This document shows positions 46,581 through 63,357 of a stretch of 64,000 bases of DNA, one piece after another. Made by a program: the position numbers and the translations under genes. Below the pieces are notes generated by a model. That model did no database searches. It had not been told where the DNA came from and saw only the letters and a list, made by a program, of their open reading frames with translations. How positions within the stretch are numbered: the stretch's first letter is position 1; each line of letters starts with the position of its first letter. Origin of the DNA: Caballeronia insecticola (lineage in GTDB: Bacteria; Pseudomonadota; Gammaproteobacteria; Burkholderiales; Burkholderiaceae); assembly GCF_000402035.1 (NCBI RefSeq), contig NC_021289.1, positions 930,001 through 994,000 on the forward strand, written 5' to 3'.

Positions 46581-47360
46581 TTACTGATTGACTGCCAGCC
46601 TGACGTTGTCGGCGGGAGCGAGATAGTCGTAGGCAACTTCGCCGATATCGAGCGTGAGATTCGCGATGACATGCCGCGCGCCGACCACGCGGCGTACCGG
46701 CAGACTCGCGACCGGCGCGAGCGCATGCGCGTGCAGTTCGAGCGCGGCGGGGCCTTCCCATGCGCCCGTCACGGTGACGTCGCGCAGGAAGAAGCGCACC
46801 AGTTCGCAGACGCGCGCAGTGCCATCGACATGCGGCAGCACCTTCAGCAGATAGTTGGGCGTTTCGGCGAGTTTCTTGCGCTCGGCTTCGAGATCGAGCG
46901 GACGATACTTGTAGCCCATCGTGCCGGTCGCGATGCGTTGCGTGCCGTAGTCGAGCGTGCCGAGCAGCGTGTCCTTGCCATCGACCGAAAGACGCGGCGA
47001 CGCCAGCTTCTTCGGAAAGCCCCAGATTTCGCGGCCACCGGCGATCGGACCTTCGTCGTCGAGATACATCGCATGCGTATAGCTGGCCTTGTTGCCGTCC
47101 GGATCGACCACCGAGATCACCTGACCGCTTTCGGTGTAATCGCCGAAACCGGATGAATCCGGCATGCGAATGAACTCGTAATGCACGAGACCGCTGTCTA
47201 CTTCGAGCGGCTCCGGAACCACGGCGCGCAATGCATCGAGATCAGTCTCGTAAGAGATGATGAAGTACTCGCGATTGAGAAAGCGAAACGGCGGACGCGG
47301 ATAAGCGGGACTGTGCACGGGCATTGCAAAGGCATTTCTGCGGATGTCGTCTTCTTTCAT
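46581..47360 (-). CDS. adc: acetoacetate decarboxylase
   Basis: A 259-residue enzyme that converts acetoacetate to acetone and CO2. The Schiff-base region [14 protein letters not shown] provides Lys117-Lys118, the equivalent of the catalytic lysine pair of the clostridial enzyme. The flanking [17 protein letters not shown] contains the acidic residues of the active site. The start at 47360 begins [11 protein letters not shown]; the in-frame extension to 47468 is not supported. It is first in the adc-bdh-patatin operon. With bdh it would drain 3-hydroxybutyrate to acetone, or act in the reverse balance of the PHB cycle. Confidence 0.92.
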
Positions 47361-47721
47361 TTTTCGGCCCTGGGTTGAGAACAGGCACGATGGTAGATGC
47401 AGACGATGACATTTGTCGCGGACCACAGGCAGCATCACGCGATCGACGGAAGCCTTGCAAAAACACAAAACCCCGCAGCTTCAAGGTCTTATGTCCATGC
47501 ATTCACGATTGCATTTTTTTGTGCAATATACTGTTGCCTTAGCGGGCCGTCGCGAAAGAAAGCGCAGCGGTTACGCTCGGCTGCGACCGGTAACATTCGA
47601 TCGGGAGCCAATTTCCGCAGGTTGCAAAAAGCTTTCAGTTTTTACTATGTTGTTGGGAGGCAAAGCGGCGACTCATGCGTTGTTTTGCCCCCTTCAGGCC
47701 ATCCCTCAAAGCGAGTTACTG
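47361..47721. promoter_or_regulatory. AT-rich divergent spacer with repeated TTGCA motifs
   Basis: Promoter region between adc and the small secreted protein gene. TTGCA or its complement TGCAA occurs four times: near 47454, at 47509-47513, at 47522-47526 and near 47622. Two of these form the dyad ATTGCA-N8-TGCAAT (47508-47527). TGC/GCA-type sites are known for the PHB regulator PhaR, and the adjacent genes belong to that metabolism, but the link is inference. Confidence 0.4.
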
Positions 47722-49870: not shown

Positions 49871-50151
49871 TTCTTCTTCCGTAAAACATGGATGGTCGCC
49901 GCATCTTCAGCAAGCCCCGCGCCTGCGAGCGGCCTTGCGGCAACGCAGCATGACCGTGTCCAAGTCCGACGTTTTATCGCCGTCTCTATCCTATTGATTT
50001 GTCGATATAAAACCGCGTCACTTGCGCGCCATGCCGCTTTTGTGACAAACAATGTCGACTCGAGGTTAGCTATATTTGCCCGCTCGGCCCTATCGTGTAA
50101 GCCATAGCGGTACCCAACATAAACATGGCTCATCAGAGCTCAGGAGACATA

Positions 50152-50877
50152 GTGGAAACCCTTGCCTTCATCTGGGACAACCTGGCGAGCATTGCCAGGA
50201 TGACCGGCGAGCACATCGAAATCGTCGGTGTGGGCGTCGGGCTCGCGATCGTGACCGGCGTGCCGCTCGGCATCGCGATCACGGTGAACGAACGGCTCGC
50301 GAAGATCGTGCTGTATGTCGCCGCGATCATCATGACCATTCCGTCGGTCGCGCTGTTCGGGCTCATGATTCCGGTGCTCTCCGTGATCGGCCAGGGCATC
50401 GGCTTTCTGCCGACCGTCATCTCCCTCTTCCTCTATTCGCAGTTGCCGATCGTGCGCAACACCTACACGGCGATCACCAACATCGATCCCGCCTTGCGCG
50501 AAGCCGCGCGCGGCATGGGCATGACCACGGGCGAGCGCCTGCGCAAGGTCGAGATTCCCATCGCGCTGCCGATCATCATGGCCGGCGTGCGCATGGCGGT
50601 GGTGATCAACGTGGGTATCGCGGCGATTGCGGCGTATATCGGCGCGGGCGGACTCGGCAAGCTCATCAGCCGCGGCATTTCGCAATCGGACCCGCGTCAG
50701 CTGATTGCGGGCGCGATCCTCGTGAGCGTGCTCGCCATCGCGGCGGATATCGGGCTCTCGTGGGTGCAGCGTTTCCTCACGCCGAAGGGTCTTCGCCAGC
50801 CTTCCCGCGCGGCCAGCCTCGCGCTGCGCCTGACCGCCATGACGGGCTTTCGCAAACAAACCGGACACGCGCAATAA
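50152..50877 (+). CDS. betaine-type ABC transporter permease 1 (OpuC/OsmU family)
   Basis: A 241-residue inner-membrane permease. The segment IVLYVAAIIMTIPSVALFGLMIPVL and the EAA-type coupling motif DPALREAARGMGMTTGERLRKVEIPIALPIIMAGVR are typical of OpuCB/YehW-like permeases. INVGIAAIAAYIGAGGLGKLISRGI is the usual C-terminal helix region. The GTG at 50152 has AGGAG at the right distance (CAGGAGACATA); the ATG at 50125 has none. It is the first gene of the ten-gene operon, with 3 bases to the ATPase. It would form a heterodimer with the second permease at 51996-52700. Confidence 0.9.
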   Translation: METLAFIWDNLASIARMTGEHIEIVGVGVGLAIVTGVPLGIAITVNERLAKIVLYVAAIIMTIPSVALFGLMIPVLSVIGQGIGFLPTVISLFLYSQLPIVRNTYTAITNIDPALREAARGMGMTTGERLRKVEIPIALPIIMAGVRMAVVINVGIAAIAAYIGAGGLGKLISRGISQSDPRQLIAGAILVSVLAIAADIGLSWVQRFLTPKGLRQPSRAASLALRLTAMTGFRKQTGHAQ

Positions 50878-50880
50878 ATC

Positions 50881-51999
50881 ATGATCAAGCTCAGCAACCT
50901 TACCAAGCGATATGACGGCGCGGCGAGCGCGGTCGTCGACGGCATCAACATGGAAGTCGGCGCGGGCGAGATCTGCGTGCTGCTCGGGCCGTCCGGCTGC
51001 GGCAAGACCACGACGCTCAAGATGATCAATCGTCTCGTGCGGCCGACCTCCGGCAAGATCTATCTCGAAGGGCGCGACACCGACGAGTTCGAAGTGGTCG
51101 AACTGCGCCGCCGCATCGGCTATGTGATTCAGCAGATCGGGCTCTTTCCGAACATGACGGTCGAAGAGAACATCAGCGTGGTGCCGACGCTGCTCGGCTG
51201 GGACAAGGCGAAGGCGCGCCGTCGCGCGGCGGAGTTGCTGGAGATCGTCGCGCTCGATCCGGCCACCTATCTCACGCGTTATCCGAAGGACCTGTCGGGC
51301 GGCCAGGCGCAGCGCGTGGGCGTGGCACGCGCGCTCGCCACCGACCCGCCCGTCATGCTGATGGACGAACCCTTCGGCGCCATCGATCCGATCAACCGCG
51401 AACTGATTCAGGACGAGTTTCTGCGCATTCAGAAGCAGGTGAAGAAGACGATCATGTTCGTGAGCCACGACATCGACGAAGCCGTGAAAATGGCCGACAA
51501 GATCGCGATTTTCCGCAACGGTCATCTCGAGCAATTCGATTCGCCCGACAACATTCTCGCGCGGCCCGCGACGCCGTTCATCGCCGGCTTCGTCGGCACG
51601 GACCGCGCGCTAAAGCGCCTGCGTCTGCTGCGCGCCCGCGATGCGCTCTCCGCGTGCGATTGCCTCGTGCGCGTCGGCGACGACAGCACGCGCGCCCGTT
51701 CGATGATGGAGAAGCACGGCGTCGCGCAGATCGTGCTCGTCGATGCCGCCAACAAGCCGCACGGCTATCTCACGGCCGAGCGTCTGCTGAAAGTGGAAGG
51801 CCCGGTCACGGCGGCGCACGCGCTTCCGGTACAAGCGATCGCGAGCCAGAAGGACGATTTGCGCACCGTGGTGTCGAGCATGTTCGCGAGCGGCGCATCG
51901 TGGATGCCCACCGTCGATGAGGACGGCCGCTTCGTCGGCTACGTGAGTCAGGAACGTATCGTCGATATGTTGAAGCTGCCCGCAGGAGAGCACGCATGA
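50881..51999 (+). CDS. betaine-type ABC transporter ATPase with CBS domains
   Basis: A 372-residue ATP-binding subunit. Walker A is GPSGCGKTT (about 38-46). The signature is LSGGQAQRVGVARALA, and Walker B is VMLMDEPFGAID. The C-terminal 120 residues form a CBS pair (MEKHGVAQIVLVDAANKPHGYL and FASGASWMPTVDEDGRFVGYV). In OpuA/OpuC ATPases this senses ionic strength or nucleotide and gates transport. It lies between the two permease genes and overlaps the second by 4 bases. Gene order permease-ATPase-permease-binding protein matches OpuC/OsmU-type systems for betaines and related compatible solutes. Confidence 0.93.
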   Translation: MIKLSNLTKRYDGAASAVVDGINMEVGAGEICVLLGPSGCGKTTTLKMINRLVRPTSGKIYLEGRDTDEFEVVELRRRIGYVIQQIGLFPNMTVEENISVVPTLLGWDKAKARRRAAELLEIVALDPATYLTRYPKDLSGGQAQRVGVARALATDPPVMLMDEPFGAIDPINRELIQDEFLRIQKQVKKTIMFVSHDIDEAVKMADKIAIFRNGHLEQFDSPDNILARPATPFIAGFVGTDRALKRLRLLRARDALSACDCLVRVGDDSTRARSMMEKHGVAQIVLVDAANKPHGYLTAERLLKVEGPVTAAHALPVQAIASQKDDLRTVVSSMFASGASWMPTVDEDGRFVGYVSQERIVDMLKLPAGEHA

Positions 52000-52700
52000 A
52001 ACGCGTCTTGTCCGTTGCGCTGCTTGCCGTGCTGAGCACGCAGGCGCATGCCGATAGCTTGTGGTCCACCATCAGCCAGTATCGCGGCGATATCGTGTAC
52101 CAAGGGCTCCACATGATGATGATGGTCGCCGTGGCGGGCGTGCTCGCGATCATCGTCGCGGTGCCTGCGGGCGTCTATCTGAGCCGTCCATCGCAGAAGC
52201 GCGGCGCGGCCGTCGTGATGCAGTCGCTCAATGCCGGACAAGCCGTGCCGAAGCTTGCGCTGCTCGCGCTCGCGATGAGCGTCATGGGCATCGGCGCGGT
52301 GCCTGCGATCTTCGGCCTGTGGGTCGCGACGCTGTTGCCGATCGCGCTGAACACCTACGAAGGCCTGCGCGCAGTGCCGCCCGCGTTGATCGAAGCCGCA
52401 ACCGGCATGGGCATGACGACGTGGCAGATTCTCTGGCGCGTCGAGTTGCCCAACGCGCTCTACGTGATCTTCGCGGGCGTGCGTACTGCACTCGCGATTA
52501 CCGTCGGCACCGCGCCGCTCGCGTTTCTGATCGGCGGCGGCGGGCTCGGCGAACTCATCTTCACCGGCATCGACCTGAACGACTTCGGCATGCTGCTCGC
52601 GGGCGCCGTGCCCACTGCGCTGCTCGCGATCTTCACCGATGCGTTCATCGGGCAGATGCAGCGCATGCTCGTGTCGCGCGGCGTGAATCCGCAAACATGA
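51996..52700 (+). CDS. betaine-type ABC transporter permease 2
   Basis: A 234-residue permease beginning with a signal-like hydrophobic stretch (MKRVLSVALLAVLSTQAHA) that may be cleaved or act as the first helix. The coupling motif PPALIEAATGMGMTTWQILWRVELPNALYVIFAGVRT matches the partner permease. The helix TVGTAPLAFLIGGGGLGELIFTGI is conserved in OpuCD/YehY-type permeases. It overlaps the ATPase gene by 4 bases and precedes the binding-protein gene by 36. The presence of two different permeases agrees with a heterodimeric importer. Confidence 0.9.
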   Translation: MKRVLSVALLAVLSTQAHADSLWSTISQYRGDIVYQGLHMMMMVAVAGVLAIIVAVPAGVYLSRPSQKRGAAVVMQSLNAGQAVPKLALLALAMSVMGIGAVPAIFGLWVATLLPIALNTYEGLRAVPPALIEAATGMGMTTWQILWRVELPNALYVIFAGVRTALAITVGTAPLAFLIGGGGLGELIFTGIDLNDFGMLLAGAVPTALLAIFTDAFIGQMQRMLVSRGVNPQT

Positions 52701-52736
52701 TTCATTAACCCACATTTCGCAACGTAGAGAGAGACC

Positions 52737-53621
52737 ATGAAAAAGTTATTCGCTGTATCGTTCGGCATCCTTATTTCGATGCTTGCAAGCGTATCCGCGA
52801 GCGGGGCATCGGTGGTCGTCGGCGGCAAGAACTTCACCGAGCAGCAACTGATGGCCGAGATGACCACGCGCTATCTCGAAGCCAAGGGCTTCACCGTGAC
52901 GAAGAAAGACGGCATGGGCAGCGCCGTGCTGCGTCAGGCGCAGGAAAACGGTCAGGTCGATGTGTATTGGGAATATACCGGCACGTCGCTCATCACTTAC
53001 AACAAGGTCAACGACCGCCTCTCGCCCGAGGACACCTACAAGAAGGTCAAGGAACTCGATGCGGCCAAGGGCCTTGTATGGCTCAATCCATCGAAGGCGA
53101 ACAACACCTATGCGTTCGCGATGAATCAGGACGAAGCGAAGAAGCTTGGCATCGTCACGATGAGCGATCTCGCGAAGGCGATCAAGGACGGCAAGGAACT
53201 GACGTTCGCGTGCAACTCCGAGTTCTATGCGCGCCCCGACGGCCTGCGCCCGCTGCAAAAGCAATATGGCTTCGAGTTCAGCCAGGGCGATGTGAAGCGC
53301 ATGGACACGGGCCTCACGTATCAGGCACTGAAGGATCGTCAGGTGAATATCGCGCTGGTGTTCGCGACGGACGGCCGCGTGCCCGCCTTCAACTTTGTCT
53401 TGCTGAAGGACGACAAAGGCTACTTCCCCTCCTACGCGTTGACGCCGGTGATCCGAAAGGTGACGCTCGATGCGAACCCGACACTCGGACCGTTGCTCAA
53501 CGCGCTCTCGGCGAAGCTCGACGCCTCCACGATGGCGCGCCTGAATGCAAGCGTCGACGTGCAGAAGAAGTCGTTCTCCGATGTCGCCAATCAGTTTCTC
53601 AAAGAGTCCGGGCTGATCTGA
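52737..53621 (+). CDS. betaine-type periplasmic substrate-binding protein (OpuAC family)
   Basis: A 294-residue exported binding protein. The signal peptide covers about residues 1-24. GGKNFTEQQLMAEMTTRYLEAKGF and the segment VYWEYTGTSLITYNKV are signatures of OpuAC/OpuCC/OsmF-type proteins for quaternary ammonium compounds. The aromatic residues of that segment (Tyr, Trp, Tyr) can build a cation-binding cage. It belongs to the four-gene importer and is followed by enzymes of CoA chemistry. The imported compound is therefore probably used as a carbon and nitrogen source rather than only as an osmoprotectant. Confidence 0.92.
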   Translation: MKKLFAVSFGILISMLASVSASGASVVVGGKNFTEQQLMAEMTTRYLEAKGFTVTKKDGMGSAVLRQAQENGQVDVYWEYTGTSLITYNKVNDRLSPEDTYKKVKELDAAKGLVWLNPSKANNTYAFAMNQDEAKKLGIVTMSDLAKAIKDGKELTFACNSEFYARPDGLRPLQKQYGFEFSQGDVKRMDTGLTYQALKDRQVNIALVFATDGRVPAFNFVLLKDDKGYFPSYALTPVIRKVTLDANPTLGPLLNALSAKLDASTMARLNASVDVQKKSFSDVANQFLKESGLI

Positions 53622-53652
53622 CCCGCGCCTCGCACAACACAGGACCGACCTC

Positions 53653-54471
53653 ATGACCACGATCAAAGTGGCCGCCGCGCAGACCGACACGGCATACGGC
53701 GACATGCAGGCGAATCTCGCGCGGCATCTCGATCACATCGGCGATGCGAAGAAGCGCGGCGTGCGTCTGCTCGTCTTTCCCGAGCTTTCGCTGCATGGCC
53801 ACAGCGGCGGCAAGGACGCGCTGCGCCTCGCGATGACACGCAACGACGCCGCGATCCGCCAACTCGCCGAAGCCAGCGCGGGCATGCATGTGACGTTCGG
53901 CTTCATCGAGGAAGCGCCGGGCGGCCAGTTCTACAACAGCCAGGCAACGGTCGCGAACGGCAGGCTCGTGCATGTGCATCGAAAGGCCATGCTGGCGACG
54001 TACGGCAAGCTGCGCGACGGACTTTACTTCGCTGCCGGCGCGAAGCCCGAAAGCTTTGCCATCGACGACGAATGGCGCGTCGCGACACCCATCTGCAACG
54101 ACCTGTGGAATCCGGCCGTCGTGCACGGCCTCATGTGCGACGGCGTCACGCTGCTCGCCGCACCGATCAGCTCCGCACGCGAAGCAGTGGGCGAAGCCTT
54201 CGACAATCCGTCGGGCTGGGACATCAACCTGCGCTTCTATGCGCTCACGTATGGCGTGCCGATCGTCATGGCGAACCGCGTCGGCACCGAAGGCATGATG
54301 ACCTTCTGGGGCGGCTCGCGCATTCTCGACGCCTTCGGCAAGACCATCGCGCAGGCAGAGGGCGACGAGGAATGCCTCGTTGTCGGCGAAGTGGATTACG
54401 AAGCGATCCGCCGCGCGCGCTTCCTGCTGCCGACCGTGCGCGACGCGCGCGTCTATGCGCAGCGTATCTGA
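53653..54471 (+). CDS. nitrilase-superfamily amidohydrolase
   Basis: A 272-residue carbon-nitrogen hydrolase. The catalytic triad is visible: Glu44 in VFPELSLHG, Lys111 in VHRKAMLATYG and Cys148 in ATPICNDLWNP. The fold is that of the nitrilase superfamily, whose members hydrolyse nitriles, amides, ureido compounds or carbamoyl groups. NDLWNP at the Cys differs from the ICYDxxFPE pattern of amidases such as Nit2. It lies between the binding-protein gene (31 bases) and the acyl-CoA dehydrogenase gene (19 bases). It probably releases a carboxylate from an amide-type substrate for the ligase downstream; this step is inference. Confidence 0.88.
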   Translation: MTTIKVAAAQTDTAYGDMQANLARHLDHIGDAKKRGVRLLVFPELSLHGHSGGKDALRLAMTRNDAAIRQLAEASAGMHVTFGFIEEAPGGQFYNSQATVANGRLVHVHRKAMLATYGKLRDGLYFAAGAKPESFAIDDEWRVATPICNDLWNPAVVHGLMCDGVTLLAAPISSAREAVGEAFDNPSGWDINLRFYALTYGVPIVMANRVGTEGMMTFWGGSRILDAFGKTIAQAEGDEECLVVGEVDYEAIRRARFLLPTVRDARVYAQRI

Positions 54472-54490
54472 ACGAACATAAGCAACCACC

Positions 54491-55663
54491 ATGCGCGATT
54501 TTCTTTTGAACGATGCGGACCGGGCCTTCCGCGCCGATGTCCGCGAATTCCTGCAACGCGAGCTCTTACCGCGCGCCGCCGATATCGAAGACCGTCAGGA
54601 CTGGGATGCCGTCAAGCACGTCGTGCGCGCGCTCGGCGCGGCGGGCTATCTGAAGCTCATGTTCCCCGATCTTTATCGCGGCAAGCTCGAACACCCTGGC
54701 CTCACGCACGCGACGATCCTCTCCGAAGAAGCGTCGTACATCAACTATGCGTTCGAGACGACCATCGCGACGGCGCTTTCCTGTGCGTATCCGCTGCATC
54801 GTCATGCAAGCGAGCGTCTGCGCGATGCCTATCTCTCGCCGATTCTCGAAGGCACGGCTATCGGCGCGATCTGCGTGACCGAGCCGAATGTCGGCAGCGA
54901 CTCGGCGGGCATGGAGACGCGCATCGACTTCGATGCGGCGCGCAACGAGTGGGTCATCAACGGCTTCAAGCGTTATATCTCGAATGCATCCGTCGCCGAT
55001 GTGTATATCGTCTACGGCCTCACGGACGAAGGCATGACCGCGGTCGCGGTACCGAAGAGCGCGAACGGCATCGGTTTCCCGCGCAACTATACGTTCATGG
55101 GGCGGCGCGGTTGCATTGTCGGCGAGGTGAAGTTCGATAACTGCCGCGTGCCCGCCGATCATCTGCTGGGCGAACGCGGCGGCGGCTTTCGCATCATGCG
55201 CGGCATGTTCAATTTCGAGCGCGCGATTCTCGGCGGCTCGGGACTCGGCGTCGCACGCAGCGCCTTCGATATCGCCACGGCCCACGCGCAGACGCGCACG
55301 TCGTTCGGTCAGCCGCTCGGCTGCAAGCAACTCATCTGGGACAAGATCGCGCAGATGAGCTGGCGCATCGATGCATCGGAACTCATTACTTATCGCGCGA
55401 CGAAGATGTACGACGCGGGCGCCGACGGCAAAGCATTGATGAAGGAAGCCGCCATGGCCAAGCTGGTCGCGACCGAAACCGCGAACTATTGCGCCAACGA
55501 AACCGTGCAGATTCTCGGCGGCGACGGCATCACCAAGGAATACGGCCGCGCGGAGCAACTCTATCGCGACGCGCGCGCGCTCACTATCGTCGGCGGCACG
55601 TCAGAAGTTGCCAAGTATCTGATCGCGGGCCGCGATCTTCCCGACATCCGGATTACTCTCTAG
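54491..55663 (+). CDS. acyl-CoA dehydrogenase, CaiA-like
   Basis: A 390-residue flavin enzyme. FAD-binding blocks CVTEPNVGSDSAGM (128-141) and GFKRYISNASVADVYIVY (158-175) are present, with YGRAEQLYRDARALTIVGGTSEV near the end. The catalytic glutamate of medium-chain enzymes (IYEGT) is replaced here by IVGGT. Instead Glu243 in NFERAIL sits where isovaleryl- and long-chain dehydrogenases carry theirs. It would oxidise or reduce the alpha-beta bond of an acyl-CoA made by the ligase encoded 18 bases downstream. In carnitine systems such an enzyme is crotonobetainyl-CoA reductase or gamma-butyrobetainyl-CoA dehydrogenase. Confidence 0.9.
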   Translation: MRDFLLNDADRAFRADVREFLQRELLPRAADIEDRQDWDAVKHVVRALGAAGYLKLMFPDLYRGKLEHPGLTHATILSEEASYINYAFETTIATALSCAYPLHRHASERLRDAYLSPILEGTAIGAICVTEPNVGSDSAGMETRIDFDAARNEWVINGFKRYISNASVADVYIVYGLTDEGMTAVAVPKSANGIGFPRNYTFMGRRGCIVGEVKFDNCRVPADHLLGERGGGFRIMRGMFNFERAILGGSGLGVARSAFDIATAHAQTRTSFGQPLGCKQLIWDKIAQMSWRIDASELITYRATKMYDAGADGKALMKEAAMAKLVATETANYCANETVQILGGDGITKEYGRAEQLYRDARALTIVGGTSEVAKYLIAGRDLPDIRITL

Positions 55664-55681
55664 AGAGCAACACCACGCATC

Positions 55682-57256
55682 ATGCTCACGATCACGTCGC
55701 TTTTCGAAAACACGGTTGCGAAGTATCCGGACCGTCCCGCGCTCACCTGCGGCGCCGTTTCACTCACCTATGCGCAATGGGACGCGCGCGTGCGCCGTCT
55801 TGCGCAGGCGCTCTTCGAACTCGGCGTGCGGCAGATGGATCGCGTCGCCATTCTGCAAAAGACATCCGACGCAACGCCGACCGCGTACATGGCGTGCCAG
55901 CTGCTCGGCGCGATTGCGGTGCCGATGAACTTCCGCTTGTCCGCCAACGAAGCCGCGTTCATTCTGCGCGATGCGGGCGCGCGCGCGCTGATCTACGATA
56001 CGTCGATGCTTCCGGTCGTCGCGAAGATCGAGCAGACGCTGCCGGATCTGCGCACGTTTGTATGCGTGAACGACGATGCGGACATGCCGCCGCATCATCA
56101 TTCGTTCGAGGCGCTGATAGAAAGCGTCGGCCAGTTTGACGCGCCGCTGCCGCGCCTCAGCCCCGACGATATCTCCGCCCTCGTCTACACATCCGGCACG
56201 ACAGGGCGCCCGAAAGGCGCGATCCACACGCACGGCAACGACGTTGCCATCGCGACGAACTGCGTGATGGAATACAGCCTCACGAGCACGGACGCGGCGC
56301 TGCATATCGCGCCGCTCTATCACGTCGGCGGCATGCAGGCGTACTTCGTGCCGCATCTGATGGTGGGCGCGCACAACGTGATCCTGCCGCGCTACGAACC
56401 GCTTGCGACGCTGCAGGCCATCGCGCATTACGGCATCACGACGCTCTTCGCCGTGCCGACGCAGATACAGGACATGCTCTTCCATCCCGGCTTCGCATCG
56501 ATCGATACGAGCAGCCTGCGCATGATCACCACGGGCGGCGCGGCCATTCCCGCCAGAACCATGCAGCGCGTGATCGACGAGTTCTGCCCGAGCATCTTCA
56601 ACGGCTACGGCATGACGGAAGCGAGCCTCACGCTGCTGCTGCATCCGCGCGATGCGCTCACGTATCTCGGTTCGTGCGGCAAGCCCACGCTCATCAGCAC
56701 ATGCCGCGTGATCCGCAACGATCCCGAACGCGTCGTGCCGCCGGGCGAAACCGTCGCGCCCGGTGAAGTCGGTCAATTGATCGTCAAGGGTCCGCAACTC
56801 GCATCCGGCTACTGGAACAATCCCGTCGAAACCGACAAGAAGTTCAAAGGCGGCTGGCTCTATACCGGCGATCTGTTCAGTGTCGATGCAGCGGGCTATT
56901 TCCACTTTCAGGGCCGCGCCGACGACATGATCGTGTCCGGCGGCGAGAACATCTATCCGCGCGAAATCGAGGAAGTGCTGTATCACTGCCCCGGCGTGCA
57001 GGAAGCCGCCGTGATCGGCGTGCCCGACGAAAAGTGGGGACAAGCGGTGACGGCGTTCATCGTGCGCAGCGTTGCGACGCTGACGGAAAACGATGTCGTC
57101 GCGTTCTGCAAGAACGGCGACGATCTCGCGCCCTACAAGCGTCCCAAGAAAATTTTCTTCGTCGAGAAACTGCCGTTGAATCCGAGCGGCAAAGTGCTGC
57201 GTCACGAACTCGCCGGACCCGTTTATCAAAGCATGCTTGCAGGAGCCCCGCAATGA
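55682..57256 (+). CDS. class I adenylate-forming acyl-CoA ligase, CaiC-like
   Basis: A 524-residue AMP-forming acid:CoA ligase. The ATP motif YTSGTTGRPKG begins at residue 169. NGYGMTEASLT and GWLYTGDLFSVDAAGYFHFQGRADDMIVSGGENIYPREIE follow, and the C-terminal catalytic lysine is in LPLNPSGKVLRHEL. The overall architecture matches ligases for short or medium acids, including the betaine/carnitine-CoA ligase CaiC. It overlaps the crotonase gene by 4 bases. It would activate the imported acid so that the dehydrogenase and crotonase can act on it. The acid is not known. Confidence 0.9.
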   Translation: MLTITSLFENTVAKYPDRPALTCGAVSLTYAQWDARVRRLAQALFELGVRQMDRVAILQKTSDATPTAYMACQLLGAIAVPMNFRLSANEAAFILRDAGARALIYDTSMLPVVAKIEQTLPDLRTFVCVNDDADMPPHHHSFEALIESVGQFDAPLPRLSPDDISALVYTSGTTGRPKGAIHTHGNDVAIATNCVMEYSLTSTDAALHIAPLYHVGGMQAYFVPHLMVGAHNVILPRYEPLATLQAIAHYGITTLFAVPTQIQDMLFHPGFASIDTSSLRMITTGGAAIPARTMQRVIDEFCPSIFNGYGMTEASLTLLLHPRDALTYLGSCGKPTLISTCRVIRNDPERVVPPGETVAPGEVGQLIVKGPQLASGYWNNPVETDKKFKGGWLYTGDLFSVDAAGYFHFQGRADDMIVSGGENIYPREIEEVLYHCPGVQEAAVIGVPDEKWGQAVTAFIVRSVATLTENDVVAFCKNGDDLAPYKRPKKIFFVEKLPLNPSGKVLRHELAGPVYQSMLAGAPQ

Positions 57257-58053
57257 GCGACCCCGTACTCTACGAACAGGACGGCCACGTCGTCACGATG
57301 ACGCTGAACCGCCCCGAAACGCGCAATGCGATCACCGAAATGGAAGTGGTCGATGCGATCATCGCGAGTCTCGAACGCGCGCAAGGCGACATGTCGGTGC
57401 GTGCGATCGTGCTGACGGGCGCCGGTCCGGCGTTCTCGTCGGGCGGCAACATCAAGCATATGCGCGACGAAGTTGGCACCTTTTCCGGCAATTCGGCGCA
57501 GATTCGCGAGAACTACCGGCGCGGCATTCAGCGCATTCCACGCGCGTTCCATGAACTCGATGTGCCGTGCATCGCGGCCGTCAACGGTCCCGCTCATGGT
57601 GCGGGTTGCGACCTCGCGCTGATGTGCGATATCCGCATCGCGGGCGAAAGCGCGCTGTTCGCGGAGAGCTTCGCGAAGGTCGGCATCATTCCCGGCGATG
57701 GCGGTGCATGGCTCCTGCCGCGCGCGGTCGGCCTGTCGCGCGCGAACGAAATGATCTTCACCGGCCGCGCGATCGATGCGAAGCGCGCCGCCGAATGGGG
57801 ACTCGTATCGAGCGTCGTGCCCGATGCGCAATTGATGGAAACCGCGCTCACGCTCGCACGCGAAATCGCGGGCAATGCGCCCGATATCCTGCGCATGTCG
57901 AAGCGGCTTGTGCGCGAGGGACAGCGCATGGATCTGCCGAGCCTGCTCGAACTGTCGGCGGCGTTTCAGGGCATTGCGCATCGCACGGCGGATCATCGCG
58001 AAGCGATCGCGGCGACCTTCGAGCGACGCGCGCCGAACTATACGGGAGCCTAA
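57253..58053 (+). CDS. atypical crotonase (enoyl-CoA hydratase/isomerase superfamily)
   Basis: A 266-residue crotonase-fold protein. The oxyanion-hole parts are SSGGNIKHM (62-70) and AHGAGCDLALMCDIRIA. The first catalytic glutamate of classic hydratases is Asp120 here. The second is Phe140 in FAESFAKVGIIPGDGGA. Asp149 in that loop could act as the acid/base instead, as in isomerase- and cyclase-type members. AGGAGC precedes the ATG. In a carnitine-type pathway the slot between ligase and downstream steps would be filled by CaiD hydratase. The residue changes argue that this enzyme does something else, for example isomerisation or decarboxylation. Confidence 0.88.
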   Translation: MSDPVLYEQDGHVVTMTLNRPETRNAITEMEVVDAIIASLERAQGDMSVRAIVLTGAGPAFSSGGNIKHMRDEVGTFSGNSAQIRENYRRGIQRIPRAFHELDVPCIAAVNGPAHGAGCDLALMCDIRIAGESALFAESFAKVGIIPGDGGAWLLPRAVGLSRANEMIFTGRAIDAKRAAEWGLVSSVVPDAQLMETALTLAREIAGNAPDILRMSKRLVREGQRMDLPSLLELSAAFQGIAHRTADHREAIAATFERRAPNYTGA

Positions 58054-58056
58054 TGC

Positions 58057-59373
58057 ATGGGCACGTCCGCCATTGCGTTCATTCATGAGCTGTCGTTCGA
58101 TGTGCTGCCGCAAAAGGTCATCGATCAGGCGAAGCTGTGCGTGCTCGATCTGCTCGGCGTCGCGATGGCGGGCCGGTCGACGGCGCTATCGCATATCGCG
58201 CACGATCACGCCGCCGAGTTTTTCGCCGCCGGCACGTTACGCTCGCGCATGCTCTTCGATGGCCGCGCGGCCAGCCCTCTTGGCGCGGGTCTCGCGGGCG
58301 CGATGACCATCGACAGTTGCGACGGTCACGACGGCCACGCGCAAACCAAGGGACATGTCGGTGTCACCGTGCTGCCCGCACTGCTCGCACTCGCCGATGC
58401 GCTGCCCGGCATGAGCGGCCGCGAATTCCTCGCGTGCATCGTGCTGGGCTATGAACTCGGCACGCGCGCGGGCATTGCGCTGCACGCAAGCGCCTGCGAT
58501 TATCATACGTCGGGCGCATGGAACGCCCTGGCCGCGGCGGCGCTCGCCGCGCGCGTCCTGCCGCTCGACATGCGTCAGACGCGCGAGGCGCTCGGTATCG
58601 CGGAGTATCACGGGCCGCGCAGTCAGATGATGCGCTGCATCGATCACCCGACCATGGTGAAGGACGGCTCCGGCTGGGGCTGCATGGCGGGTCTGTCCGC
58701 CGCGTTTCTGGCACGGCGCGGCTTCACGGGTGCGCCTGCGCTGACCATCGAACAAGACGCAACCCGCAATCTCTGGAGCGATCTCGGCGAACGCTGGCGC
58801 ATCATGGAGCAATACTTCAAACCGCAACCGGTCTGCCGCTGGGCGCACCCCGCCATCGATGCGGCGCTCGCGCTCAAGTCGCGGCACGGCTTCACGAGCG
58901 AGCAGATTCGCGCGGTGAACGTGCGCACGTTCCATCACGCGACCCGGCTTGCACACGCCGCGCCCGCGACGACCGAGGAAGCGCAATACAGCCTGCTGTT
59001 TCCGGTGGCCGTCGCGCTGAGGCACGGCGTGGTGCGTTTTGATTCGCTGCACGGCGATGCCCTCCGCGATAAAGACGTGCTGCGCCTGAGTCATCTCATC
59101 CGCACCGAAGATCACGCCGAGTACACGTCGCGCTTTCCGGACGAGCGCATCGCGGAGATCAGCATCGAATTGTTCGACGGGCGGCGCGTCGATTCCGGTC
59201 CCACGCAGGCGCTCGGCGATCCCGCTCTGCCACTCGATGCAAACGCGATCCGCGCCAAGTTCCGCCACTTCGCGGGCGCATCGAGCGAACTGGAACGCGC
59301 CGTCGATGCACTCGATGCGAACGACACTGCCATCGCACTGCTGCTCGATCTCGTGCTTTCACCTCGCGTCTGA
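58057..59373 (+). CDS. MmgE/PrpD family protein
   Basis: A 438-residue member of the MmgE/PrpD family, whose characterised relatives are 2-methylcitrate dehydratase, cis-aconitate decarboxylase and iminodisuccinate epimerase. It shows LGVAMAGRSTALSHIAHD, the Asp/His-rich MTIDSCDGHDGHAQTKGHVGVTVLPALLAL, and HASACDYHTSGAWNALAAAALAARVL. The PHPA-like and MVKDGSGWGCMAG segments around 205-215 are also typical. It lies 3 bases after the crotonase and 3 before the regulator gene. In this operon it may eliminate water or a leaving group, or epimerise, a hydroxy or amino acid intermediate; the actual reaction is unknown. Confidence 0.9.
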   Translation: MGTSAIAFIHELSFDVLPQKVIDQAKLCVLDLLGVAMAGRSTALSHIAHDHAAEFFAAGTLRSRMLFDGRAASPLGAGLAGAMTIDSCDGHDGHAQTKGHVGVTVLPALLALADALPGMSGREFLACIVLGYELGTRAGIALHASACDYHTSGAWNALAAAALAARVLPLDMRQTREALGIAEYHGPRSQMMRCIDHPTMVKDGSGWGCMAGLSAAFLARRGFTGAPALTIEQDATRNLWSDLGERWRIMEQYFKPQPVCRWAHPAIDAALALKSRHGFTSEQIRAVNVRTFHHATRLAHAAPATTEEAQYSLLFPVAVALRHGVVRFDSLHGDALRDKDVLRLSHLIRTEDHAEYTSRFPDERIAEISIELFDGRRVDSGPTQALGDPALPLDANAIRAKFRHFAGASSELERAVDALDANDTAIALLLDLVLSPRV

Positions 59374-59376
59374 CGA

Positions 59377-60411
59377 ATGAACGCGAACGACATCCCGCCG
59401 ACCGCACGCGCCACAAAAACGGCGCGCGCGCCGGCGCCTGTCGATGCAGCGGAGGCGCTCAAGCCGCAGCGCATGGGCTTCTTCCTGGTGCCGCATTTTT
59501 CGATGATGTCGCTCAGTTCCGTCACCGAGCCATTGCGCGCGGCCAATCGCGTGAGCGGCAAGGACTTGTATAGCTGGCATCTGATCAGCGCGGACGGCGA
59601 GCCGGTCTCGTCGAGTTCGGGCTTTGCGTTGTTGCCCGACTTCGCGATCACATCGTCGCCGGAACTGAGTCATGTGTTCGTCGTCGCGAGTATCGGCGTT
59701 TCGAACTATCGTAATGCGCAGGTCTTCGAGTTTCTGCGCCGCTATGCCGCGAAGGGTTCGACGCTCGGCGGTATCAGCCTGGGCACGATGATCCTCGCGC
59801 GTGCGGGTTTGCTCGACAAGCGCCGCTGCACGATTCACTGGGAAGCGCTCAAGGAACTCGCCGACGAGTTTCCGTCGCTCGACGTGAGCCGCGATCTCTA
59901 TTGCATCGAAGGCGACCGCATGACATGCAGCGGCGGCACGGCTGCCATCGACATGATGCTCGATCTGATCGCGCGTCAACATGGACATCAGCTTGCGGCC
60001 GAAGTCGCGGATCAGTTCATTCACACGCGCATGCGCACCGCGCAGGAAAGCCAGAAGATGGCGATTCAATGGCGCTATGGCGTGGAAGACCGGCGCATCG
60101 TGCATGCGGTTACGCTGATGGAACAGAACATCGAGCGTCCCATTCCCATGAAAACGATCGCCTCGCTCGCAGGCATTTCGCCGCGCACGTTCGAGCGCAT
60201 GTGGATCAAGCATTTTCACGTGCGGCCGTCGCAGTTTTATCTTGAACTCAGGCTCAAGGCCGCACAAAAGCTGATTCGCGAATCGTCGCTTTCGCTGCTC
60301 GACATCGCGATGAATTGCGGCTTCGCGAGCGCGTCGCATCTCGGGCGCTGCTACAAGCAGTTCTTTTCGAAGACACCCGGACAAGAACGCGCCGCAGGCG
60401 ACGCTCGTTGA
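59377..60411 (+). CDS. GlxA-type transcriptional regulator (GbdR/CdhR-like)
   Basis: A 344-residue regulator with an N-terminal DJ-1/PfpI-like domain (MGFFLVPHFSMMSLSSVTEPLRAANR) and a C-terminal AraC module. The latter comprises IPMKTIASLAGISPRTFERMWIKHFHVRPSQFYLELRLKAAQKLI and LSLLDIAMNCGFASASHLGRCYKQFF. The nucleophile Cys of DJ-1 enzymes is absent; the elbow reads GGISLGTMI, so it is a sensor, not an enzyme. This is the architecture of GbdR and CdhR, which respond to dimethylglycine/betaine and carnitine. Being last in the operon (3 bases after the PrpD-like gene), it probably regulates it. Confidence 0.92.
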   Translation: MNANDIPPTARATKTARAPAPVDAAEALKPQRMGFFLVPHFSMMSLSSVTEPLRAANRVSGKDLYSWHLISADGEPVSSSSGFALLPDFAITSSPELSHVFVVASIGVSNYRNAQVFEFLRRYAAKGSTLGGISLGTMILARAGLLDKRRCTIHWEALKELADEFPSLDVSRDLYCIEGDRMTCSGGTAAIDMMLDLIARQHGHQLAAEVADQFIHTRMRTAQESQKMAIQWRYGVEDRRIVHAVTLMEQNIERPIPMKTIASLAGISPRTFERMWIKHFHVRPSQFYLELRLKAAQKLIRESSLSLLDIAMNCGFASASHLGRCYKQFFSKTPGQERAAGDAR

Positions 60412-60423
60412 TACCGCGATGCG

Positions 60424-61050
60424 TTATCCGGCATCGCCCGAACTGATCGCAGTCTGCATGCTCTTCAGAAGCTTCACCAGATAGCGCAGCAGCCCGACCG
60501 TATCGCCGAATTCGATGAAGCCCGGCTTGACGCCATCGCTGAAGAGCAGCGTGCCGTCGAGCGTCGCATCGACAATCAGGCCGCCGTATGCGGCGTGCGG
60601 CATGTATTCGTCGGCGGGAATGCGGAACACGTTGCCGTTGACGGCGGCATCGCGCAGGCGCATCAGAAATTGCACTTCAGGTGCGCGTGAGGCGGACAGC
60701 CGATGAACGTCGAAGTATTCCGCGACCGCCAGCAGCGCATTCGTGCAAGGCACGATCATCGCGAACGCGATGCGCTTTTCGGGTGTGTCGAACGATGGCC
60801 AAGAAAACTCGGCACCCTCTGCATTCGATGTCGGCTGTTTGGTCGGCGTGCCGTCCTCGCTATGCGCATGCGCTTCCGGATGCGATTTCTTGCGCGCCAA
60901 TAACCGTTGCGCTTTCGCGAAGTCGGGCGGCGGCGCGTCACGCTCGATCCAGTCGGACAGAAGGCTCGCGTATGCGGCGAGCATTGTCACCTGCGCTTCG
61001 ATGAACGCGACGCCGATTCTGCATGCGTCGGGCGATTTGCTGTCGGACAT
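60424..61050 (-). CDS. hypothetical protein
   Basis: A 208-residue protein without a recognised family. The N-terminal third is helical and ends in a Lys/His/Ser-rich linker (RLLARKKSHPEAHAHSEDGTPTKQP). The rest has a mixed fold with the segment IRLRDAAVNGNVFRIPADEYMPHAAYGGLIVDATLDGTLLFS as inferred from the frame. AAGGAGAGC directly precedes the ATG at 61050, so translation is well supported. No signal peptide or membrane segment is visible. It converges with the GlxA-type regulator gene, 12 bases between stops. The role is unknown. Confidence 0.7.
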   Translation of the reverse strand: MSDSKSPDACRIGVAFIEAQVTMLAAYASLLSDWIERDAPPPDFAKAQRLLARKKSHPEAHAHSEDGTPTKQPTSNAEGAEFSWPSFDTPEKRIAFAMIVPCTNALLAVAEYFDVHRLSASRAPEVQFLMRLRDAAVNGNVFRIPADEYMPHAAYGGLIVDATLDGTLLFSDGVKPGFIEFGDTVGLLRYLVKLLKSMQTAISSGDAG

Positions 61051-61462
61051 GTGCTCTCCTTGGTGAACCGTAAGTTCATGTGCAAGACGCAACAAGCGCG
61101 CCTGTTTGAGGGCGGCTGAGATAAAAGACCGTTAGTTGCATATGAATCAACGAGAACTCGACGAAAACGAATACCGGCTCGACGCCCATACTGTGGATGA
61201 AAGGCTACAAATCACATTAGAGACATTTACCAACGCCTGACATAGCGTTATATTCCTTCCGCTATAGCGTGAGTCGTCGACTGAAGGCGTCGAGGCAACG
61301 CTACTTGCCTACTCCATCGGCGGAATGTCTCTCTGCCTGTTTGTCGAAGCACCCTGAACATCACGAAGCACTCGACCTTTGCGCGGTTTTCGCGCGAAGC
61401 CGGGACGATTGCGCTCGCGCTTTCGAGAGTGCCGTGACCGGACCACATCAAGGACAAGAAGA
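61051..61462. other. porin upstream region
   Basis: About 410 bases between the hypothetical gene and the porin start. It holds a 32-codon open frame (61142-61240) and a perfect 10-bp palindrome CGCTATAGCG at 61260-61269. It is AT-richer than its flanks and likely contains the porin promoter and a long leader. Confidence 0.45.
61142..61240 (+). CDS. possible 32-residue leader or small protein
   Basis: An ATG-started frame encodes MNQRELDENEYRLDAHTVDE and twelve more residues before TGA. The composition (acidic, helical, few Arg codons) looks protein-like rather than random GC-rich sequence. No clear Shine-Dalgarno precedes it. It may be a leader peptide of the porin transcript, a small protein, or chance. 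Confidence 0.25.
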   Translation: MNQRELDENEYRLDAHTVDERLQITLETFTNA

Positions 61463-62650: not shown

Positions 62651-62682
62651 GCGCGATGCCGGATGCGGTATCGCGCTTTTTT
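62651..62682. terminator. hairpin terminator between porin and TetR genes
   Basis: GCGCGATGCC pairs with GGTATCGCGC (one G-T pair) around GGATGC, followed by six T residues on the plus strand. The T-run overlaps the stop codon of the convergent TetR gene. Confidence 0.85.
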
Positions 62683-63313
62683 ATTTGCGTGGCGCGTGGC
62701 GCTCGTAGCGCGCGAGGAACATATCGGCGGCGGATTCCGCCACTTTCTTCTGCTCATGCTTCGAGAGCGGCGGCTGGCCCATCGTCACTTGCGGCCAGAA
62801 CGCGAAGCCCTTCACGATGCCATGCAATTGCTGCCCGGCGAATACCGGATCGGCAACCGAGAGACGCCCGTCCGCGGCGGCTTTTCTGATCCATACCGTC
62901 AGATCTTCTTCACGCTGGCCGATGCGCGCCACCATGTCGCGCGCGCGCTCGGGCGAATGAATGCCCGCCGCGATCGCCACCCGCGCCAGCGACAAAAAAG
63001 CCTCGTCGGTCATGAGCCGCAACTTGCGCGCGAGCAATGCGAGCAACTGCGCGCGCAGCGGTTCATCGGCGTTGTATGCGGGCGTGTCGCCAGTCTCGCT
63101 GGCATCCCAGAGACGATGCAGGATGGCCGCGAACAGCGCCTCCTTGCTCGGGAAGTGGTTGTAGACCGTGCGCTTGGAGACGCCCGCGCTTGTGGCAATG
63201 CGGTCCATGCTGGTTGCGTCGTAGCCCGCCGCGATGAACTCCTCCACGGCCGCGTTCACGATGGCGGCGCGCTTGCGGTCGGTCAGGCGTTGGGGAATGT
63301 CGTTCGAATCCAT
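62681..63313 (-). CDS. TetR family transcriptional regulator
   Basis: A 210-residue regulator. The N-terminal helix-turn-helix lies in RAAIVNAAVEEFIAAGYDATSMDRIATSAGVSKRTVYNHFPSKEALFAAIL. The helical C-terminal domain resembles AcrR-type members with a tetracyclin-repressor-like fold (family TetR_C_33/33-like by pattern). It is divergent from the metallo-beta-lactamase-fold gene, with 85 bases between starts. That spacer contains an imperfect 20-bp palindrome, so repression of both genes is likely. The ligand is unknown. Confidence 0.93.
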   Translation of the reverse strand: MDSNDIPQRLTDRKRAAIVNAAVEEFIAAGYDATSMDRIATSAGVSKRTVYNHFPSKEALFAAILHRLWDASETGDTPAYNADEPLRAQLLALLARKLRLMTDEAFLSLARVAIAAGIHSPERARDMVARIGQREEDLTVWIRKAAADGRLSVADPVFAGQQLHGIVKGFAFWPQVTMGQPPLSKHEQKKVAESAADMFLARYERHAPRK

Positions 63314-63357
63314 CTTTAGATTTTACACCGAGCGGTTTACTTTAATCTCAAAAATAA

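Follow-up and report, generated by a model that had tools for sequence, protein, structure and literature searches.

A putative betaine-utilization gene cluster of modular layout in Caballeronia insecticola

Ten consecutive plus-strand genes of Caballeronia insecticola, at positions 50152–60411 of the window analysed here (the 64,000-nucleotide stretch from 930,001 to 994,000 of contig NC_021289.1), appear to form a betaine-utilization cluster with a modular layout, in a gene combination that looks undescribed. Judged from the gene content of related loci, its near-constant core is a betaine-type ATP-binding cassette (ABC) importer with a nitrilase-fold C–N hydrolase (NIT), usually accompanied by a GbdR-like regulator (REG), and the coenzyme A (CoA) enzymes and an MmgE/PrpD-family protein (PRPD) are modules that are missing elsewhere or replaced by a Rieske demethylase set. 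The CoA enzymes are an acyl-CoA dehydrogenase (ACAD), an acyl-CoA ligase (LIG) and a crotonase-fold protein (CROT). A preliminary description of the window had cast the ten genes as one pathway, which is corrected here: importer and NIT stay constant while CoA enzymes and PRPD come and go, and the simplest reading would be that one NIT product is handed to interchangeable modules. The predicted operon may serve to take up and degrade a zwitterionic amino-acid betaine bearing a side-chain carboxamide, a general class that we put forward tentatively.

Core and exchangeable modules

The core was delimited on 48 loci with a NIT row, counted with the window in and one duplicate genome out, near-copies (e.g. 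L044 and L046) being retained. The periplasmic binding protein of the importer (SBP) is in view in 46 of the 48, the exceptions being L157 and L158; PRPD is present in 37, the CoA module in 25 and the Rieske set in 14. These module shares are biased because most loci came in through the MmgE/PrpD gene, which inflates the PRPD share. The Rieske oxygenase gene itself is visible in 12 of the 14 Rieske-set rows; in L044 and L046 it lies past the fetched end, and the label was given through the reductase and flavoproteins. On the NIT tree, a quick tree supported by the Shimodaira–Hasegawa-like approximate likelihood ratio test (SH-aLRT) only, the minimum number of changes is eight for the CoA module, five for PRPD and three for the Rieske set, and one supported Paracoccus group (six rows, SH-aLRT 96) keeps the Rieske set throughout but differs internally in CoA module and PRPD. 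L118 comes from the same genome as L033 and was kept out of the trees; the residue counts given below, of 50, 49, 26, 24 and 99 rows, include both it and the window.

As far as recurrence can tell, the ten-gene content is an inherited unit, because it is found again in Burkholderiaceae, Alcaligenaceae, Azospirillum, Caenispirillum and Rhodobacterales, and the arrangement lies far beyond chance, because the same order recurs in nine further Burkholderiaceae loci and a nine-gene block in distant lineages; the gene run would thus have been kept together across distantly related soil and sea bacteria. Within the family, PRPD matches at E ≤ 1e-60 occur in 16 of 299 genomes, counting the window's own (6.96 Mb). 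Fourteen of the other 15 were read, the match in the last (G267) having internal stops and standing on a 9 kb contig. Eight of the 14 (G061, G282, G256, G232, G287, G136, G040 and G251) hold the ten families in window order, as does Caballeronia sp. NK8, on a replicon to whose proteins those of the operon are 86–97% identical. The remaining six (G153, G262, G108, G139, G047 and G238) are Rieske-type loci, in which importer, NIT, Rieske oxygenase, reductase, PRPD and two flavoproteins stand with a divergent GlxA-type regulator. When genomes were drawn by NIT instead, the yield was 17 of 299 in the same family, 15 of them with PRPD, and 6 of 398 in the phylum; both figures count the window's own genome.

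Farther afield, bacterial and archaeal genomes were scanned with the PRPD alignment, and of at least 582 relatives the 80 best were retained. The nine-gene block from importer to PrpD, with a REG-family regulator in front (37–52% identical to REG), is found in Rhodobacterales, Caenispirillum, Azospirillum and one Alcaligenaceae genome. Full sets with REG first (REG, importer, NIT, ACAD, LIG, CROT and PRPD) are those of L042, L045, L049, L055, L063, L067, L106, L107, L115 and L117; L118 is Pandoraea terrae, from the same genome as G251. In the minimal loci (L059, L062, L066 and L073) a divergent regulator accompanies importer, NIT and PRPD, with neither CoA nor Rieske modules in view. In L041, L044 and L046, importer, NIT and PRPD are joined by the Rieske-set reductase and flavoproteins, the Rieske gene itself being visible in L041 only. 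Among plasmid records, those of Paracoccus denitrificans PD1222 and P. versutus have importer, NIT, ACAD, LIG and PRPD with the Rieske set adjoining, and those of P. alcaliphilus and P. yeei have importer, NIT and Rieske set, PRPD being absent. PRPD is also absent from L133 (plasmid) and from the genome loci L162 and L163, which hold importer, NIT, ACAD, LIG, CROT and a regulator. The importer–amidase core would supply a marker gene pair, and the presence of two modules behind one core would allow two routes for a single compound to be compared in nature; PD1222, which carries both the CoA and the Rieske modules with CROT missing, can be manipulated.

The operon of L049, labelled Oceanobacillus (Bacillota), groups among Rhodobacterales on the NIT tree, which points to mislabelling, contamination or transfer. 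PRPD-subfamily members recognized by peptide patterns occur in assemblies titled Acidimicrobiales (L079, L080, L082, L084 and L090), and the subfamily may therefore extend past Proteobacteria. At 2–10 kb of L021, an Ancylobacter polymorphus plasmid, genes for two CocE/NonD-type hydrolases are interspersed with those of a second importer of the betaine type and with a distantly related nitrilase-fold gene (27%).

Binding pocket and catalytic residues

According to Pfam the importer is complete, with two permeases, a CBS-type ATPase and an OpuAC binding protein. The first permease (50152–50877, 241 amino acids) is OpuB/ProW-like (PF00528, E 5e-24); the ProV/OpuA-like ATPase with its CBS domain (50881–51999, 372 amino acids; PF00005 and PF00571) scores 326.9 bits with the ProV-type NCBIfam model TIGR01186, barely above the cut-off of 326.6; and the second permease occupies 51996–52700 (234 amino acids; PF00528, E 6e-23). 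SBP (52737–53621, 294 amino acids; PF04069, OpuAC) matches ProX of Archaeoglobus fulgidus (AfProX; 1sw2) at E 2e-43, and its pocket columns are Y80, N123, Y125, R166, F209 and Y233. The residues by which AfProX contacts betaine are listed in a passage of PMC10087775, which also gives glycine betaine and proline betaine as its ligands. In SBP the columns of AfProX Y63, Y111, R149 and Y214 (Y80, Y125, R166 and Y233) are unchanged in 50 of 50 rows, that of Y190 is Phe in 49 of 50 (F209), and that of D109 (N123) holds Asn in 42 rows, Asp in six and Ser in two. The columns of K13 and T66, which we take to be further AfProX contacts, are kept in all 50. An aromatic cage and carboxylate-side residues are thus retained in what is a predicted betaine-binding pocket, in support of the betaine-type ligand that the preliminary description had proposed, and an alpha-betaine is the likely ligand, given those of AfProX and the shared contact columns.

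The closest named relatives of NIT (53653–54471, 272 amino acids; PF00795, CN_hydrolase) are the glutamine-hydrolysing domain of NAD+ synthetase (NCBIfam, 105 bits; PDB 5kha, E 1e-18) and N-carbamoylputrescine amidase (NCBIfam, 94 bits). Its Glu–Lys–Cys triad (E44, K111 and C148) is intact and, together with Y117, invariant in 49 of 49 rows. Y117 sits six residues past the catalytic Lys, the same spacing as Tyr127 of tbNadE, which according to a passage of PMC6946656 touches both the bound glutamine of the glutaminase and Glu177. The residue following the NIT cysteine is Ala in 37 rows, Asn in 12 and Glu in none, at the place of tbNadE Glu177, and this lost acid could reflect a pocket for a quaternized amine. 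Of the earlier proposal of an amide- or nitrile-bearing betaine, the amide stands as the likely class and the nitrile is unsupported.

In the three-domain (Pfam) ACAD (54491–55663, 390 amino acids), 26 of 26 rows have E89, in the column of the acyl tail, and likewise E243, the probable base, whose column is presumably the catalytic base position of isovaleryl-type enzymes. E89 aligns with R87 of 3mpi and with an Arg of the host glutaryl-CoA dehydrogenase (GCDH) L169. The top PDB hits of L169, at 796 bits, are structures of GCDH, and its Arg stands 277 residues ahead of the glutamate in YEG, just as Arg97 and Glu374 are spaced in Burkholderia pseudomallei GCDH. Five of 11 host ACAD paralogues gave a usable alignment row and six gave none; in the other alignable ones the E89 column is Gly (L165, L168 and L170) or Ala (L166). 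The GCDH Arg itself contacts the terminal carboxylate of the substrate directly. A Tyr hydrogen-bonded to this Arg97 (Arg94 in human) interacts with that carboxylate, according to a passage of PMC3169403. With E89 in place of Arg, the charge at the distal end of the acyl pocket is reversed, which would suit a cationic acyl end.

LIG (55682–57256, 524 amino acids; PF00501 and PF13193) is an AMP-forming ligase. CROT (57253–58053, 266 amino acids; PF00378, ECH_1) scores 417 bits with NF006699 (cut-off 354), and its D120 and F140, which occupy both hydratase Glu columns, and D149 are each invariant in 24 of 24 rows. CROT is probably no standard hydratase because D120 and F140 replace the hydratase Glu pair. 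CaiD has Glu in both columns; 7mcm, annotated as an enoyl-CoA hydratase, shares the D120, F140 and D149 residues.

PRPD (58057–59373, 438 amino acids, with the motif AEYHGPRSQMMR) scores 139.6 bits with PF03972 and 108.9 with PF19305, the cut-off being 32.1 for each. Its best matches among ten PDB sequences are IRG1, a cis-aconitate decarboxylase (E 6e-17), and IDS-epimerase (E 5e-13), and His100, His150 and Lys255 are kept in 99 of 99 rows and common to two decarboxylase rows. A 2-methylcitrate dehydratase PrpD was ruled out, the score with the NCBIfam model being 19 bits against a cut-off of 575, and a link to hydroxyproline-betaine epimerase was rejected, the enolase-family neighbour of PRPD in L069 being nearest a sugar-acid enzyme. 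REG (59377–60411, 344 amino acids), in which Pfam and NCBIfam place a DJ-1/PfpI domain and an AraC domain, is nearest GbdR, at 341.8 bits and below the NCBIfam cut-off of 480.

Partner genes and host capacity

The Rieske oxygenase of PD1222 scores 436 bits with stachydrine demethylase versus 120 with the carnitine monooxygenase CntA. Among 100 clustered loci an MTTB-type gene is present in 18 and a DMGDH-like gene in 11, as raw counts over the fetched stretches; the type A locus L042 is one of the loci with such genes in the fetched stretch. The MTTB label was checked on L042, L060, L063 and L070, where scores of 278–306 bits lie under the pyrrolysine-type cut-off of 525. The type A operon of L042 is followed, at 10–20 kb, by genes for an MTTB of non-pyrrolysine type, a flavoprotein resembling DMGDH and a protein of the sarcosine-oxidase-alpha type, possibly a full demethylation line in one place. 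Behind REG and on the same strand, three of the minimal loci have a YdiJ-type D-2-hydroxyglutarate dehydrogenase (L066 1490, L062 1451 and L073 1436 bits; cut-off 1350); in the fourth, L059, none is seen at that position.

The host genome holds one near-full-length Stc2/GbcA-like Rieske oxygenase (G000:C4:1413171; 463 bits, cut-off 670), with ten weaker partial matches. It adjoins an OpuAC binding protein (L129), on a different contig from the operon, and about 20 kb from it lie sarcosine oxidase alpha (1435 bits, cut-off 1164) and beta (730 bits, cut-off 529). N-methyl disposal could fall to this locus. The preliminary description had placed the end of the path elsewhere; genes for N-methyl disposal (Rieske and sarcosine oxidase) are indeed encoded elsewhere in the genome, which speaks against the impression that the end is missing. 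A search of the genome for MTTB found none, and MTTB was rejected as part of the window system although it stands near PRPD in other loci.

Proposed route

Among substrates, a side-chain-amide alpha-betaine is favoured because it fits the SBP pocket, the relatives of NIT and the partner modules, and a C5 skeleton because it fits both the ACAD pocket, with E89 at the GCDH Arg column, and the YdiJ neighbour. The favoured exact compound is glutamine betaine (N,N,N-trimethylglutamine), a candidate that we nevertheless consider doubtful. We know of no degradation pathway for it. Amino-acid betaines past glycine betaine and proline betaine occur in plants, and the operon may show how bacteria consume a neglected plant-made nutrient. 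One study of rye and wheat bread identified twelve amino-acid betaines, according to a passage of PMC5890289; there and in a passage of PMC5920414 glutamine betaine and glutamic acid betaine are reported from cereals, with a table in PMC12706699 as a further source on glutamine betaine.

The route might run as follows. With REG turning the operon on in response to a betaine-type inducer, the OpuC-type importer, whose pocket residues are those described above, would take up the betaine, and NIT, as a Glu–Lys–Cys amidase, would release ammonia from its amide and leave a dicarboxylic betaine (glutamate betaine). LIG would join the freed carboxylate to CoA, and ACAD would desaturate the acyl chain, its cationic end held by the invariant E89. 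MmgE/PrpD relatives decarboxylate, dehydrate or epimerise beside a carboxylate, and, more speculatively, PRPD might carry out carbanion chemistry at such a position while it and CROT rearrange or split the product to a C5 acid of the 2-hydroxy- or 2-oxoglutarate type. The N-methyl groups would be stripped by enzymes encoded elsewhere in the genome. In other lineages the same NIT product would enter a Rieske route of the stachydrine-demethylase kind, which would replace the CoA route or run alongside it. That all parts hold together (a glutamine-betaine pathway, NIT a betaine-specific amidase, ACAD acting on a cationic (trimethylammonio)glutaryl-CoA, PRPD acting on a betaine, and CoA and Rieske modules swapped behind an importer–amidase core) is improbable.

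Several observations weigh against this proposal. L157 and L158 have NIT orthologues with no importer in view, and in L060, which has no row in the module table of NIT loci, ACAD, LIG, CROT and PRPD are present but no importer or NIT is in view. On the PRPD tree (98 rows) the PRPDs linked to importer or NIT are clustered and do not form one clade (nine changes, at least four of them forced by well-supported branches), PRPD adjoins the sugar-acid enzyme in L069, and its chemistry on glutamate betaine is not obvious. ACAD scores nearly as high with short-chain acyl-CoA dehydrogenases, and the control CaiA, whose acyl group is trimethylammonium-bearing, carries Tyr and no acid at the E89 column, so that the E89 clue is not general. 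YdiJ as a neighbour of REG could be chance. Finally, in L159 and L160 NIT and importer have as neighbours an oxygenase resembling HalD and an M24 protein resembling DddP, joined in L159 by a malonate-semialdehyde-type (MMSDH-type) dehydrogenase, and these neighbours do not follow from glutamine betaine; they suggest a shorter carbon chain or an M24 module for another compound. The stretches with HalD and M24 lie at 5.4–14.7 kb of L159, 4.5–14.1 kb of L160 and 2.1–9.8 kb of L065, the last combining them with importer and PRPD, NIT not being in view; beside the importer they possibly make a separate betaine or sulfonium lyase route.

Alternative explanations

These same neighbours are what favours a short substrate (alanine or beta-alanine betaine), for which the variable modules would be alternative means of trimethylamine expulsion and NIT would have a side role. 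NIT would be superfluous in that case, although no other catabolic gene accompanies the importer so constantly, and the M24 proteins fall far below the DddP cut-off (315–321 versus 600 bits), so we hold a short betaine to be distinctly unlikely. An omega-betaine amide (4-trimethylammoniobutyramide or 5-trimethylammoniovaleramide) has a better claim, unlikely as it too seems: NIT would act like DavA, the 5-aminovaleramide amidase, and LIG, ACAD and CROT, which belong to classes acting on such acids, would beta-oxidise gamma-butyrobetaine or valerobetaine. The quaternary nitrogen of gamma-butyrobetainyl-CoA would also take the position of the terminal carboxylate of glutaryl-CoA, in keeping with E89. 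However, the Rieske partner belongs with Stc2/GbcA and not with CntA, SBP has a pocket like that of a protein binding alpha-betaines, the hydratase Glu pair is missing from CROT, which shares 32% identity with CaiD, and the ten genes have neither a 3-hydroxyacyl-CoA dehydrogenase nor a thiolase by Pfam. Aspartate or asparagine betaine is chemically attractive for PRPD and fits less well than a C5 compound, to which the GCDH-like pocket and YdiJ are better suited. A nicotinamide or trigonelline amide was set aside, the CoA module making no sense there.

A different part for PRPD, as an epimerase for N-methylated amino acids comparable to IDS-epimerase on iminodisuccinate, would open the D-forms of amino-acid betaines to the cell. 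Its match to IDS-epimerase, the MTTB-type and DMGDH-like genes (18 and 11 of the 100 clustered loci) and Rieske sets of other loci, and the fact that PRPD can be absent are all in line with such a part, which we nonetheless regard as unlikely, cis-aconitate decarboxylase being about as close a relative and the sugar-acid enzyme of L069 being a neighbour too. The least probable of these alternatives is an osmoprotective importer next to which the catabolic genes merely happen to lie: although the importer family takes in OsmF, OpuC and ProX, the genes are tightly spaced, their order is conserved in distant proteobacteria, the regulator is GbdR-like and catabolic modules have repeatedly been exchanged beside the same importer. 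On those grounds the earlier view that the operon is catabolic, and not simply a system for osmoprotectants, is upheld as the more plausible one.

Relation to known systems

In the Cai system (E. coli caiTABCDE) a CoA ligase, an enzyme of acyl-CoA dehydrogenase fold and a crotonase likewise act on a betaine. The window ACAD, LIG and CROT are, however, only 27%, 27% and 32% identical to CaiA, CaiC and CaiD, the CaiB CoA-transferase and CaiT antiporter families are absent from the ten genes by Pfam, CROT has no Glu pair, and the operon adds NIT, PRPD, an ABC importer and a GbdR-like regulator. Cai-type carnitine metabolism is therefore excluded on sequence, and the mismatch with that route pointed out in the preliminary description is borne out. 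Type B clusters join the same importer and NIT families to an Stc2-like oxygenase and a GbcB-like reductase, whereas the window operon has no Rieske demethylase, the host homologue being on another contig. With OpuC, OsmU and ProX the operon shares a complete four-gene importer with a betaine pocket, but here it is tied to catabolic genes. NIT resembles the NAD+ synthetase glutaminase domain and N-carbamoylputrescine amidase in nitrilase fold, triad and Tyr spacing and differs in standing alone, in having Ala or Asn for the Glu after Cys, and in scoring only about 100 bits. PRPD shares with IRG1 and IDS-epimerase the MmgE/PrpD family and, with the two decarboxylase rows, its His, His and Lys residues; it is set apart by the distance of those two matches and by its subfamily motif. 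No account of this gene combination came up in searches of an open-access library for it and for related pathways, subscription papers being outside the scope.

Operon layout and flanks

The junctions between the ten open reading frames (ORFs) are, in order, 3, −4, 36, 31, 19, 18, −4, 3 and 3 bases. ORF coordinates, Pfam and NCBIfam bear out the tight spacing and the named family of every protein, both as first described. GTG at 50152 is the most plausible start of the first gene because AGGAG stands just upstream of it, an alternative ATG at 50125 being possible. A consensus scan of the run, which is weak evidence, found no plus-strand promoter-like sites inside it, and plus-strand terminator-like sites within genes only, none of them in a gap.

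Both flanks are other transcripts. Downstream, a minus-strand ORF at 60427–61095 without a Pfam match (E ≤ 0.001) is followed by a porin and then by a plus-strand ORF at 62663–63316, likewise without a Pfam match at E ≤ 0.001. Upstream, on the minus strand, lie an SDR-type dehydrogenase and an acetoacetate decarboxylase-family gene, the latter at 46584–47468.

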